NCBI GenBank assembly: GCA_005882415.1
Contig: VBAE01000111.1
Coordinates: 1-36,220 of the forward strand
Direction of reading: 5' to 3'
DNA length: 36,220 bases
Source of the DNA: Alphaproteobacteria bacterium
GTDB lineage: Bacteria > Pseudomonadota > Alphaproteobacteria > Sphingomonadales > Sphingomonadaceae
In this document: positions 443 to 5,032 of the stretch, piece after piece
How the letters are laid out: every line of letters starts with the position of its first letter
Position numbering within the stretch: position 1 is the first letter of the stretch
Position numbers and translations under genes: made by a program
The notes under the pieces: model-generated
The model's database searches: none
The model's input: only the letters and a program-made list of their open reading frames with translations
What the model was told of the DNA's origin: nothing

Positions 443-474
443 GGATGTCCGCTTTCCACCCATTGCAGACATCC
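443..474 (+). repeat. Hairpin repeat A, copy 1
   Basis: Core CTTTCCACCCATTGC flanked by the inverted arms GGATGTCCGC and GCAGACATCC (one mismatch), giving a 10-bp stem and a 12-base loop. It lies in the gap between the receptor terminator and the next ORF. Confidence 0.85.
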
Positions 475-498: not shown

Positions 499-879
499 AT
501 GATATCCAAGCGTAACTTCAACGGCATCGCTCACGACATTGCCCATCACGCCCAGAGCGGACTTAGCTACCTGCATCCTCATGTGGTTGAGGCGATACGG
601 CGCAACGGCGCTGCCGCTGCGAAGCTAGACCTTATTGCTGAACAGCCTTGGCCCCCGAACTTCATCGTGGAGGTGCCTCTGCAACTCGCCACCGCTGCGC
701 TTCAAAGGAGGTTTCGGGATATGGTGTCGGGAGTGTCTCTCGACGTGGACGACCTCGCCGCCGCTTCGCTGTTGTTTCTCCACCCGGCAGGGAAGGACGA
801 TTACACCGCAGAGGTGCGGTCCGTACTGATCACGAAAGAGGGCAAGCGCTTTGAGCATACCCTCACCGTGGATTGGTGA
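499..879 (+). CDS. Hypothetical protein, 126 aa
   Basis: A complete ORF without a recognised family. The predicted soluble protein begins MISKRNFNGIAHDIAHHAQS and contains a hydrophobic stretch around residues 90-97 (AAASLLFLH) that is too short for a membrane segment. There is no signal peptide. Codon use is GC-rich at third positions like the neighbouring genes, which supports a real gene rather than a shadow. It lies between hairpin repeat copies 1 and 2 and is in tandem with the next small ORF. No function can be assigned; homologues in other sphingomonads would be expected to be annotated as hypothetical. Confidence 0.6.
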   Translation: MISKRNFNGIAHDIAHHAQSGLSYLHPHVVEAIRRNGAAAAKLDLIAEQPWPPNFIVEVPLQLATAALQRRFRDMVSGVSLDVDDLAAASLLFLHPAGKDDYTAEVRSVLITKEGKRFEHTLTVDW

Positions 880-888
880 GGCAGGTAA

Positions 889-916
889 CGTCCCCTTTCC
901 ACCCATTGCGGACATT
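889..916 (+). repeat. Hairpin repeat A, copy 2
   Basis: Core CTTTCCACCCATTGC with arms GTCCCC and GCGGAC (one mismatch in the stem). It sits immediately upstream of the start chosen for the next ORF and would be translated as part of it if the longer frame from 851 were used. Confidence 0.8.
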
Positions 917-1307: not shown

Positions 1308-1333
1308 GTCTGCTTTCGACCCATTGCGGACAC
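1308..1333 (+). repeat. Hairpin repeat A, copy 3
   Basis: Variant core CTTTCGACCCATTGC with arms GTCTGC and GCGGAC. It touches the stop codon of the minus-strand membrane protein that follows. Confidence 0.8.
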
Positions 1334-1671: not shown

Positions 1672-1698
1672 TATCCGCTTTCCACCCATCTCGGACCT
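1672..1698 (+). repeat. Hairpin repeat A, copy 4 (degenerate)
   Basis: CGCTTTCCACCCATCTCGGAC: the loop is conserved but the 3' arm reads CTCGGAC instead of TGCGGAC. It is located about 20 bases upstream of the membrane protein start on the other strand. Confidence 0.7.
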
Positions 1699-1734: not shown

Positions 1735-2235
1735 TCACCATCCTGCCTCTGGAAGAAACGTGATAATGACATAGCGGTTTTGAGCGTCGGGCGCGCCTCT
1801 TGGCGCGTTCACCAAGGGCTCGGAAATCCCAAGCCCCTTGGTCGTGATCTTTGCCCCGGGCACGTTTCGTCCAAGTAGGTACCGCCTCACTCTCTCTGCC
1901 CGACGATAAGAAAGGAGCGGGTCCCGCTCCTCCGCCGCCGAGTTGTCCGTGTGACCCGATATGTCCGCCGTCGCGCCATCGACGCACCCGGACTCCCAAA
2001 GTGCTGCAACGGTATCAAGAATTGCTGTCGCCCGGTCGGTGATTTCGTCGCTTCCAGGATCGAAAAACACGATGAAGGGCCCGGCAAAGCAATCAACAAT
2101 AACAGGAGCGGGCGGCGGCGGCGAGGTCAACGAAGCAGGAGTGATGTAAGCGGATCCCCAGATAACTGGCGCCAGGAGCACTGAGAACGCGTTTAACGCC
2201 ATCAACCCGAGCCTTCCACGACGACAGCCGATCAT
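1735..2235 (-). CDS. OmpA-family (OmpA C-terminal-like domain) exported protein
   Basis: The 166-residue protein has an Arg-rich N-terminus and a hydrophobic stretch (LNAFSVLLAPVIWGSA) that reads as a signal peptide, then a short proline-rich linker (SPPPPAP). The rest is a peptidoglycan-binding OmpA-like domain: FIVFFDPGSDEIT, the signature GHTDNS around residue 94, YRRAERVRRYL, and NRYVIITF at the end. Proteins of this type attach non-covalently to peptidoglycan from the periplasm. It has no beta-barrel, so it is a minimal form. An alternative start at 2202 has a better-spaced GGAAGG, but the longer form keeps the positive charges expected of a signal peptide. Confidence 0.8.
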   Translation of the reverse strand: MIGCRRGRLGLMALNAFSVLLAPVIWGSAYITPASLTSPPPPAPVIVDCFAGPFIVFFDPGSDEITDRATAILDTVAALWESGCVDGATADISGHTDNSAAEERDPLLSYRRAERVRRYLLGRNVPGAKITTKGLGISEPLVNAPRGAPDAQNRYVIITFLPEAGW

Positions 2236-2332: not shown

Positions 2333-2358
2333 GTCCGCTTTCCACCCATTGCAGACAT
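2333..2358 (+). repeat. Hairpin repeat A, copy 5
   Basis: GTCCGC arm, core CTTTCCACCCATTGC, arm GCAGAC. It is in the 262-base gap between the OmpA-domain gene and the next ORF; the gap holds copies 5 and 6 and no other recognisable feature. Confidence 0.85.
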
Positions 2359-2447: not shown

Positions 2448-2474
2448 GCTCGCTTTCGACCCATTGCGGACATT
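2448..2474 (+). repeat. Hairpin repeat A, copy 6
   Basis: Variant core CTTTCGACCCATTGC as in copy 3, with 3' arm GCGGACATT; the 5' arm (GCTCGC) no longer pairs well. Confidence 0.75.
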
Positions 2475-2497: not shown

Positions 2498-3601
2498 ATG
2501 CCTCCCATTCTGACCATCGATGATGTGTTCGACATAGAAGCGTGGGGAGGGCTTATAGTCGTTCCCGGCCCGCTGATTGCTGACGGCCCTGCAAGAGCGG
2601 AGGGGCCGGTTCTCCTGAAACGTCCTGATGGTTCGACGGTCACAGCGGTGCTGCGGATGGGCGAGATTTTTCAAACCCCTCCCCCTAAGGAGCGGCGATG
2701 GGGGTGCCTCCTCAAGGGGGTCGAAAAGGCAGAGGTCCCTATCGGGACGGAGGTTTGGCTAACTGACGAAGGTCCGCTTTCCACCCATTGCGGACATTGG
2801 CGTGTGCGTGCATCCTCGCGGCACAAGAGCAGCGGGGGTTCTGTGTTTCGAGCGATGAAGCTGCGGCCACCGCACGGATGGCCGGCGGTTTGGTGGGAAC
2901 TCGCAATTGTGACCATCGGCGTGCTGATCGCGCTCGGGCTGGGCGAGGTTGCCACCGCCATTCGCTGGCGCTTCGACGCCGCGGAGGCGCGATCGGCAAT
3001 GATGACCGATTTGGAGCGGGACGCCGGCGTCATGCACGAACGGCAACTCGCAAGACGCTGCATCGAGCGGCGGCTCGGCGATGTCGATGCGCTGCTTCAG
3101 CAGGCGAGACGTAGCGGGACTTTGCCGCTGGTGAGCCGCATCGGGCGGCCCCCGACGAGACCATTGGTCACGGCCGCCTGGGACATGAGCGTATCTTCCG
3201 GAGTGCTTCCCCATCTCTCGCGGGACGAAGCAGGCGGCTACTCCGCGAATTTCGACATGATCAATGAAATGGCGGGCGACTTCAAAGCGCAGAGCGCCCT
3301 TTGGGCTAGATTGGCCGCGCTGGAGAATGCCCCCGGCCCGGTCTCACAGGACTTCCTGACCGAATTGATGTTCGTCAGCGCGGAGCTGCGCCTGGGAAGC
3401 CGCTATGTCGATACGGTCGCGGGACAGATCGTCCAAATCGGGCAAGCCAACGGCAGACTCGATTATTGGCTTATCCTCGATCGGGAGAACGGAAGCGCGG
3501 CCGACATAATCGCCGGTCTGCGTTCGATGCCGATATGTCAGCCGTTGGTGGTGGATGGTCGCCCCTATTCGCGGCGAGGGGGAGAAGCGCATGCGCTTTA
3601 G
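2498..3601 (+). CDS. Fused ORF: small beta-barrel-like domain plus DUF6090-like membrane protein
   Basis: One uninterrupted 367-codon frame appears to contain two genes. Residues 1-91 (MPPILTIDDVFDIEAWGG..., ending VPIGTEVWLTDE) resemble a small stand-alone domain reminiscent of EF-Tu domain 2 (tentative). Residues 92-101 (GPLSTHCGHW) are encoded by hairpin repeat copy 7. From Met120 (ATG at 2855) begins a typical member of the triplet that follows: MKLRPPHGW, a single membrane helix WELAIVTIGVLIALGLGE, then a helical region with CIERRLGDVDALL and IGRPPTRPL. The likely native start of the membrane protein is 2855 (248 aa), but no stop separates the two parts and the Shine-Dalgarno sequence there is weak, so a fusion product is possible. 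It overlaps the next gene by 11 bases. The membrane part is probably inner membrane with a periplasmic domain. Confidence 0.6.
   Translation: MPPILTIDDVFDIEAWGGLIVVPGPLIADGPARAEGPVLLKRPDGSTVTAVLRMGEIFQTPPPKERRWGCLLKGVEKAEVPIGTEVWLTDEGPLSTHCGHWRVRASSRHKSSGGSVFRAMKLRPPHGWPAVWWELAIVTIGVLIALGLGEVATAIRWRFDAAEARSAMMTDLERDAGVMHERQLARRCIERRLGDVDALLQQARRSGTLPLVSRIGRPPTRPLVTAAWDMSVSSGVLPHLSRDEAGGYSANFDMINEMAGDFKAQSALWARLAALENAPGPVSQDFLTELMFVSAELRLGSRYVDTVAGQIVQIGQANGRLDYWLILDRENGSAADIIAGLRSMPICQPLVVDGRPYSRRGGEAHAL
2772..2797 (+). repeat. Hairpin repeat A, copy 7 (inside an ORF)
   Basis: GTCCGC / GCGGAC arms perfectly paired around the 12-base loop TTTCCACCCATT. It is the only copy of the seven located wholly inside an open frame, where it is translated as about ten residues linking two domains. 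Confidence 0.9.
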
Positions 3602-4280
3602 TCTGCCGAGGCCGCTTCATGGCTGGCGACGGTTTCTCGGCGAGGTTGGCGTGATCGTGATCGGCGTGCTGATCGCGTTGGGGGCTCAGCAGGCAGCCGA
3701 GAGCTGGAATCAGCACAATGACGTGGCTGAAGCGCGTAAAGCGTTGCGCGCCGAGATCGCTATCGCCGCGGCCGACGTCCGTGCGCGCATTGCGCTCAGT
3801 CCCTGCGTGAACCGGCGTGCTGCCGACCTCGAACAATGGCTCGAAGGCTATCGCAAGCACGACGCCCGGTCGCCCATCGGAGCCATCGGCCGCCCACCTT
3901 CGAATCCGCCGATCAGCGAAGCATGGGAAACGCTGAAGGCGAGCCCCGCCGCGATGCATATCCCAACGCAAGAGCGGCTCGCCTACGCGACGCTCTATGC
4001 GCGATTGCAGACGATCCGGGAAATCGAGAAGGCCGAGCGCGAGGCCTGGCTCGAGCTTCAAGACTTTCAAGACGCCCCCGATCTCGACCCGGCTTCCGCG
4101 ATGAAGCTGCGCGGATTGATTTATAGGGTCCTTCAGGCAGACGATGCCTTGCAGCGCTACGGCCGCGGGGCTCTCGATGCCGCTGCGCAGATGCAGGTGC
4201 GTCCAGTCGCGCGCCCGCCCGCCAAAGCCTCGGACCTTTGCAGGCCGCTTAAACTGGCTGTGACGAAGGGGGCAGCATGA
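3591..4280 (+). CDS. DUF6090-like single-pass membrane protein, 229 aa
   Basis: The start is ATG 3591, preceded by AGGGGGAG; the ORF-track start at 3555 would lack this site. After MRFSLPRPLHGW comes a single membrane helix, FLGEVGVIVIGVLIALGAQQ, then ESWNQHNDVAEARKALRAEI and a long helical, probably periplasmic, region. The helix motif (GE-x-x-V-x-V-I-G-V-L-I-A-L followed by W-N) is like that of DUF6090 proteins, known mainly from Bacteroidetes and without a known function. It is a clear paralogue of the preceding membrane protein: CVNRRAADLEQWLEGYRK and IGRPPSNPP align with CIERRLGDVDALLQQARR and IGRPPTRPL. Both also keep a cysteine near the C-terminus (LCRPL versus ICQPL), so an intramolecular disulfide is conceivable. 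Its ATGA overlap with the next gene implies translational coupling. Confidence 0.7.
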   Translation: MRFSLPRPLHGWRRFLGEVGVIVIGVLIALGAQQAAESWNQHNDVAEARKALRAEIAIAAADVRARIALSPCVNRRAADLEQWLEGYRKHDARSPIGAIGRPPSNPPISEAWETLKASPAAMHIPTQERLAYATLYARLQTIREIEKAEREAWLELQDFQDAPDLDPASAMKLRGLIYRVLQADDALQRYGRGALDAAAQMQVRPVARPPAKASDLCRPLKLAVTKGAA

Positions 4281-5032
4281 TCTTCAAGCGGGCAGTGGCC
4301 AGGCTGAGGGCGCAGGACTGGATGGCGATCGGCATCGAAATCGGGATCGTCATCATCGGCGTATTTATCGGCACCCAGGTGTCGAATCTGAACAACGCGC
4401 GGATCGAGCAGGCGAAGACCCAGCAAATGGCGCGCGACCTCCAGCCTGAGCTGCGCAACCTCGCGAGGGATTTGCGGATTATGATTGCGTATTACGCCAC
4501 AGCCCGTCGCTATGGCGATACCGCCTTTGCAGGTTGGCGGGACGACCCACGAGTCAGCGATCGCGATTTCGTCATCGCTGCTTACCAGTCCAGCCAGAAC
4601 GTGCTCACCGGGGTCAACAACGCCAGCTGGTCGCAGATTTTCGGCAGCGACCGGCTCCGGGATCTCCAGAATCAGCGTCTGCGCGAGTCCTTGTCGGCAC
4701 TGATGACGACCGACCTTGCCGGTTTCGAGAGAGACCTGTCGACCGAGTATCGCCGCGACGTACGCATGGCGATCCCCGAAGATATCCAGGATGCGATCCG
4801 CGCGCATTGCGGAGACCGGCGCACCGGCCTCGCTACGATCGCCCTGCCGCCGACCTGCACGCTCGATCTCCCCGAGGCGCGCTTCACGGCGGCGGCACAG
4901 GCGCTTCGCGCGAACCCGAAGTTGGTCGGCGAACTGCGCTATCACTTCGCAGTCGTGGCAAGCTATGTTGAGACCATTCGATTCCTCCACGATCTGACGC
5001 ACTCGGCGCTTCAGCAAATCACCCGCGCATGA
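4277..5032 (+). CDS. DUF6090-like single-pass membrane protein, 251 aa
   Basis: Third member of the run. ATG overlaps the preceding TGA by four bases. The N-terminus MIFKRAVARLRAQDW leads into the membrane helix IGIEIGIVIIGVFIGTQVSN and the polar segment NARIEQAKTQQMARDLQPEL, the same architecture as the two genes before it. The C-terminal region is more diverged: it contains WSQIFGSDRLRDLQNQRLRE and a cysteine pair (HCGDRR and TCTLDLP) rather than the IGRPP block. Most of the protein is predicted helical and periplasmic. No catalytic motif is evident. No terminator is seen downstream; a degraded remnant and the glnD tail follow on the opposite strand. Confidence 0.7.
   Translation: MIFKRAVARLRAQDWMAIGIEIGIVIIGVFIGTQVSNLNNARIEQAKTQQMARDLQPELRNLARDLRIMIAYYATARRYGDTAFAGWRDDPRVSDRDFVIAAYQSSQNVLTGVNNASWSQIFGSDRLRDLQNQRLRESLSALMTTDLAGFERDLSTEYRRDVRMAIPEDIQDAIRAHCGDRRTGLATIALPPTCTLDLPEARFTAAAQALRANPKLVGELRYHFAVVASYVETIRFLHDLTHSALQQITRA

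Follow-up and report, generated by a model that had tools for sequence, protein, structure and literature searches.

What do three overlapping genes for small membrane proteins form in a sphingomonad genome, a dedicated set or a chance grouping of members of a larger family? The genes g1 (2855..3601, + strand, 248 aa), g2 (3591..4280, +, 229 aa) and g3 (4277..5032, +, 251 aa) lie on a contig stretch of 36,220 nucleotides, which was analysed as a whole and is called the window here. The overlap of g1 with g2 is 11 bases and that of g2 with g3 is 4 bases, and G-rich stretches resembling ribosome-binding sites lie 5' of g2 and g3. In each product a short basic N-terminus leads into a single hydrophobic helix, and each would be a bitopic membrane protein, g1 and g2 carrying what we call a type I body and g3 a DUF6090-like type II body. 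The first two are paralogues (tblastn E=1.2e-19, 30% identity) with C-x-x-R-R-x-x-D, IGRPP and a late Cys in common, and g3 has a Cys pair (C178/C194). An earlier sequence-only reading of this DNA had described three consecutive overlapping genes for single-pass membrane proteins, the first two clear paralogues with these motifs and the third with a Cys pair, and all of this was borne out.

The frame of g1 is open upstream to 2498, across a separate small reading frame and the seventh copy of an array repeat described below. Homologous anchors in relatives support the ATG at 2855 as the g1 start. Between 2498 and 2854 the small frame is continuous via the repeat into g1, and automatic annotation would give a 367-aa fusion.

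The three proteins belong to no curated family in Pfam, NCBIfam, PHROGs or PADLOC. The DUF6090 model, PF19578, gave no match for any of them at E<=10 and none anywhere in the window's own genome at E<=1. A survey covering 100 related genomes led to G066, from another family of the same order, in which contig C1:53229-66515 (L038, L039) carries a run of DUF6090-type genes, about 16 in number, overlapping (mostly by 4 bases) or abutting, with one further copy separate from the run. The first 40 residues of the run's products are near-identical while their bodies have diverged, and several members exceed the PF19578 cut-off. Residues 1-238 of g3 showed full-length homology to one gene of this tandem array (tblastn E=2e-23), and profiles seeded with g1/g2 relatives, on the one hand, and with g3 and the G066 array, on the other, converged on the same 98 proteins. 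DUF6090 proteins share one N-terminal membrane helix with an acid-Gly-Ala/Gly pattern and a length of about 250 aa, and transitivity through the G066 array, which contains accepted members, supports g3 as a remote DUF6090-type protein.

Body-only HMMs trained without the window genes distinguished the two types. The type I model scored g1 at 126.5 bits (E 5.9e-38) and g2 at 141.7 bits (E 1.3e-42), and the type II model scored g3 at 54.9 bits (E 6.2e-16); the type II model gave nothing for g1 or g2 and the type I model nothing for g3. Profile-profile comparison of the types gave E=1.7e-6 with the anchor and 5e-4 for the bodies alone, at a probability of 33%, a weak likeness that makes common descent of the two bodies likely, though short of proven. 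By these sequence comparisons g1 and g2 form a sister type, and single-profile search detects no kinship of its body with that of g3. The proposal that all three are DUF6090-like was supported for g3; for g1 and g2 its basis is the shared anchor and the weak profile-profile similarity. Compared with PF19578, whose model matches none of the window proteins, g1 and g2 carry a body of another type, which has a Cys pair, and the family seen here is larger, modular and anchor-swapping. The searches made found no literature on DUF6090, PF19578 or the repeats described below, and within the libraries searched (Pfam, NCBIfam, PHROGs, PADLOC and the literature) the suggestion of an undescribed system was supported.

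Genes of the g1/g2 type were present in 5 of 25 genomes of the same genus and in 23 of 201 genomes of the order; one genome of 2.3 Mb has up to 14 of them, scattered. The distribution is patchy, with lineage-specific expansion to as many as 14-17 copies per genome. Relatives occur in Sphingomonas, Croceibacterium, Phenylobacterium, Caulobacter, Rhizomicrobium, Lysobacter and Gemmatimonadetes, several of these genomes being metagenome-assembled. Apart from the one run of about 16, they are scattered singletons and pairs beside unrelated, often housekeeping, neighbours, and no second locus with a g1-g2-g3 triplet was seen among the relatives' loci. Clustering of 562 neighbouring proteins gave no conserved partner gene, plasmid collections held no relatives of g2 or g3, and viral contigs did not match the g2-type alignment. 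The sequence-only reading had suggested heterotypic assembly and had named single homologues at unrelated loci as evidence to the contrary; such homologues are what was found. An obligate heterotypic triplet is not supported, and by gene content the triplet is not a conserved unit.

What the family members have in common is the anchor. In the window it occupies codons 1-35 of g1 (2855..2959, +), 1-36 of g2 (3591..3698, +; W12, E18, G25, A29) and 1-36 of g3 (4277..4384, +). Its invariance was computed over 139 distinct members in g2 numbering: position 18 is E or D in all of them, position 25 is Gly in 137 and Ala in 2, position 29 is Ala or Gly in 139 of 139, and position 12 is Trp in 93%. The helix signature proposed earlier was present but drawn too narrowly, and the family-wide form is W-x5-[E/D]-x6-G-x3-[A/G]. 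On an ideal helix, positions 18, 25 and 29 fall within 20 degrees of one line. Anchors are far more conserved than bodies, which are about 25% identical in paralogue sets.

Anchors and bodies do not always travel together. When scored by body models that had not been trained on them, two chimeras from S. caseinilyticus and S. cremea (L114, L122) combined a g3-type anchor (69-72% identical to that of g3) with a type I body (scores of 105 and 100 bits); in another (L115:8143-8946) a type I anchor preceded a type II body (29 bits, E 4e-8), and a fourth (L113) joined a third anchor type to a type I body. These computed matches show anchors and bodies reassorted in both directions, the joint lying within or just past the membrane-helix codons. 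A 24-nt segment shared by g1 (2915..2938, +) and g2 (3660..3683, +) at 92% identity lies inside these codons and is a possible crossover point between the paralogues. Many matches between cassettes start at the repeat or at the start codon and go no further than the anchor, so that this first part of the gene behaves as a module at the DNA level. Positions 4267-4407, around the g3 anchor, have 76% DNA identity to the anchor that a cassette gene of another Sphingomonas (L245) carries. In two paralogue sets third-base identity at shared fourfold sites was 0.50-0.62 in anchors vs 0.32-0.34 in bodies; because anchor identity between genomes was also elevated, at 0.44-0.55, these values do not cleanly separate recent gene conversion from constraint on the 5' DNA. 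Values of dN/dS were 0.01-0.29 in anchors and bodies alike, which indicates purifying selection and therefore constrained proteins.

The AlphaFold2 model of g2, a confident one (pLDDT 92, pTM 0.83), has a helix at 12-68 that would span the membrane into the periplasm, further helices at 70-88, 126-159 and 167-200, and two short predicted strands at 93-96 and 221-224. In the model the helices look like a bundle continuous with the membrane helix. C72 and C217 are near-invariant in type I bodies, and a C72-C217 disulfide is likely. The g3 model was weaker (pLDDT 82). Foldseek searches against the PDB and viral models returned generic helical bundles and nothing at E<=0.001; aspartate-receptor ligand domains were among the non-significant fold matches (E 0.4-1).

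The DNA upstream of the triplet is organised by a 24-bp oriented imperfect palindrome with the consensus GTCCGCTTTC[C/G]ACCCATTGCGGAC. Seven copies, where none are expected by chance, all lie on the + strand with small genes between them: at 447..470, 890..913, 1308..1331, 1673..1696 (degenerate), 2333..2356, 2448..2471 and 2772..2795, the last an exact consensus copy that ends 59 bp 5' of the g1 start codon. Repeats 1 and 2 enclose a small orphan ORF (499..879, +, 126 aa), repeats 4 and 5 an OmpA-domain protein (1735..2235, -, 166 aa), and repeats 6 and 7 the small orphan reading frame (2498..2770, +) that is in frame with g1. A relative of the OmpA-domain protein (44%) is encoded at L248:13033-13551, on a different contig of this genome, and also lies between repeats and in equal orientation to them. 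No repeat copy was found 3' of g3, so the triplet lies at the edge of the array; the contig begins where the window does.

Repeat copies also lie near family genes at other loci, where a matrix built without those of the window found 124 vs 1 in reversed sequence. With gene calls from our own heuristic, and several genomes draft or metagenome-assembled, a repeat lay within 150 bp upstream of 26 of 120 family members vs 37 of 860 other genes (p 1e-9), and repeats lay on both sides of 18 of 120 vs 24 of 860 (p 3e-7). Repeat orientation agreed with that of the gene in 40 of 50 cases. At loci picked for their genes and not for repeats, 80 of 85 adjacent pairs had the same orientation (p 2e-18); overall, with some loci picked for repeats, the figure was 155 of 166 (93%). 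Single arrays were uniform: 18/18 in L254, 12/12 in L260 and 11/11 in L248, on the other contig of the window's own genome. Repeat-to-repeat intervals (n=121) had a median of 661 bp. The closest relatives of g3, at 44% (full length, L254:9946-10707) and 36% identity, adjoin array repeats in S. cremea. No repeat of this kind was present at many other members (those of Phenylobacterium, Gemmatimonadetes and the G066 run), so the cassette context is not family-wide.

Several units turn up again at non-equivalent positions in other Sphingomonas species, with homology ending at or near repeats. A 2.1-kb unit is present in L256 and L251 (81%), and the match ends about 30 bp or less from repeats on both sides of L251. 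For a family gene shared by L250 and L254 homology ends 1 and 51 bp from repeats, and for a kinase-like gene shared by L239 and L244 it ends 40-66 bp from them. A pair of units in S. caseinilyticus sits between two conserved gene blocks, and the relatives examined have no units at either block. No relative examined offered a perfect empty site: the two sides of the tested insertion do not adjoin there. Genomes contain 0-9 scattered copies of an unnamed multi-pass membrane family of about 200 aa (L118:4009-4623, L122:7762-8340, L119:5610-6230, L137:9551-10132), and several copies are repeat-flanked and adjoin DUF6090-like genes. This orphan family recurred among the clustered neighbouring proteins and proved to be repeat-flanked as well.

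The arrays resemble those of integrons and of CALINs (attC clusters without an integrase) in being runs of mostly single small genes between short same-oriented sites, with units present in different genomes at different places. They differ in having a site of just 24-36 bp, no paired attC end boxes and no integrase above cut-off. The left attC box (RYYYAAC) was found at 2 of 231 sites, the right (GTTRRRY) at 7 and both at none, and in 13 genomes the model of the integron integrase IntI (TIGR02249) had no match above cut-off, the matches being generic tyrosine recombinases. Integrons have been reported to be entirely absent from Alphaproteobacteria (PMC9668308). Folding of the repeat into an attC-like hairpin was rejected (within-copy pairing 0.603 vs 0.587 for random pairing), as was pairing across a cassette, which showed no excess over permuted pairing; compensatory change maintaining the palindrome was not seen. 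REP elements with their RAYT transposases are likewise short, intergenic, imperfect palindromes scattered over a genome, but the copies here are uniformly oriented, and the Y1 (RAYT) transposase PF01797 was absent from the repeat-bearing genomes tested (G000, G004, G165, G185, G209); Y1 transposase genes were found in several genomes without the repeat. No Rfam family matched the repeat. In S. caseinilyticus a short tyrosine recombinase (PF00589, 210 aa) is present in two copies (L251:13297-14010, L264:6483-7169), both bracketed by outward-facing repeats. As a candidate mobiliser it was rejected: the tyrosine-recombinase matches inspected in the array-bearing G000 and G185 included no relative of it, and the array-bearing G165 has Xer-sized ones alone.

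Two readings of the arrays have to be weighed. It is possible, though less likely than not, that the repeats are passive intergenic sequences in gene-poor regions that gather orphan genes, the array being a by-product. The repeat by itself is scattered widely through the genus, its palindrome pairs hardly above random, and no recombinase was identified among the genomes searched, all of which suits passive repeats. However, passivity does not readily account for the shared orientation of neighbouring copies (93% overall and 18 of 18 in one array), for the enrichment on both sides of family genes, or for homology between non-syntenic loci that stops at or near repeats. We regard it as conceivable, if somewhat doubtful, that sphingomonads carry an undescribed integron-like system, in which a recombinase other than a recognised integron integrase would move small gene cassettes that lie between short oriented sites, with a modular, anchor-swapping membrane family as a major cargo. 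If the arrays are mobile, Alphaproteobacteria would have a gene-capture platform of the sort they reportedly lack, with a new type of site.

As to the proteins themselves, the reading that we tentatively favour, without calling it probable, is an inner-membrane modular superfamily whose fixed anchor docks members in a shared assembly or on a shared partner while variable bodies face the periplasm. In the topology that we infer, the short basic N-terminus of g1-g3 would stay inside and a helical body of about 200 residues would lie in the periplasm. The sequences show one near-fixed anchor serving differing bodies, anchor and body exchanged at a joint within or just after the membrane-helix codons, and genes scattered singly or in small groups, in sphingomonads often within oriented-repeat arrays. 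Because E18, G25 and A29 share one helix face, the anchor may dock all members in the same membrane assembly, either among themselves or onto one common partner, and each body may bind a periplasmic target of its own. Translated together, g1, g2 and g3 would then supply three subunits to it, as alternatives or in a mixture. Against this, no partner gene is conserved nearby, and a sorting rule, instead of assembly, could explain why anchors are conserved. That g1, g2 and g3 instead form a dedicated heterotrimer, as first proposed, is suggested by their overlapping co-directional genes and by three diverged paralogues, but we consider it very improbable with relatives mostly single or paired at unrelated loci and no second triplet locus seen.

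Other roles fit parts of the same evidence. Expansion within lineages, patchy spread and variable bodies on one anchor are also what might be seen if these were membrane-tethered immunity proteins, different bodies neutralising different competitor toxins that act in the periplasm, with stocks of orphan immunity genes kept in the arrays. We think this unlikely: no toxin or secretion gene recurs alongside, orthologues are under purifying selection, an invariant intramembrane acid would not be required, and PADLOC gave no match above chance (none for g1-g3 and one at chance level for a relative). The predicted g2 helix, unbroken from membrane to periplasm, with its three further helices and the aspartate-receptor domains among the fold matches, recalls chemoreceptor four-helix ligand domains, which are likewise helical bundles continuous with a membrane helix. 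A role as periplasmic ligand sensors or adaptors, signalling via a partner that reads the common anchor, is nevertheless unlikely too, and slightly more so, given a fold similarity that is not significant, a single membrane helix with the C-terminus in the periplasm, and no conserved kinase or receptor neighbour. Membership of the chemoreceptors (MCP) was rejected: no Pfam domain was found, the model ends in the periplasmic part, and g1-g3 have no second membrane helix, HAMP or signalling domain. Least credible of all is a pilin-like subunit, in which an acidic, Gly-containing first helix would polymerise as in type IV pilins beneath variable heads closed by a C-terminal disulfide. Such a subunit would fit the acid early in the hydrophobic helix, the long first helix that enters the head, the conserved anchor with a variable head and the near-invariant C72 and C217 of type I. 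The Gly/Ala of a prepilin-peptidase site five residues before the acid is missing, however (that column is R in 59%, F in 20% and A in 6%), and no pilus or secretion genes recur nearby; membership of the type IV pilins was rejected on the missing site.

Whether or not the arrays are mobile, the family makes a clear, testable claim: with a near-invariant helix recombined onto diverse bodies, it would be the membrane helix and not the body that the cell recognises. E18, G25, A29 and anchor swaps provide handles on a family of unknown function. Cargo bounded by repeats is not confined to orphan genes: in S. cremea (L254:16363-18196 and L245:10142-11875) it includes ordinary enzymes and domains, namely a glutamine amidotransferase, a SIMPL/DUF541 protein and a FAD-binding berberine-type protein. 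Three Rhizobium plasmids (NZ_CP088009, NZ_CP149878 and NZ_CP148092) each carry one near-exact copy of 28 bases of the repeat.
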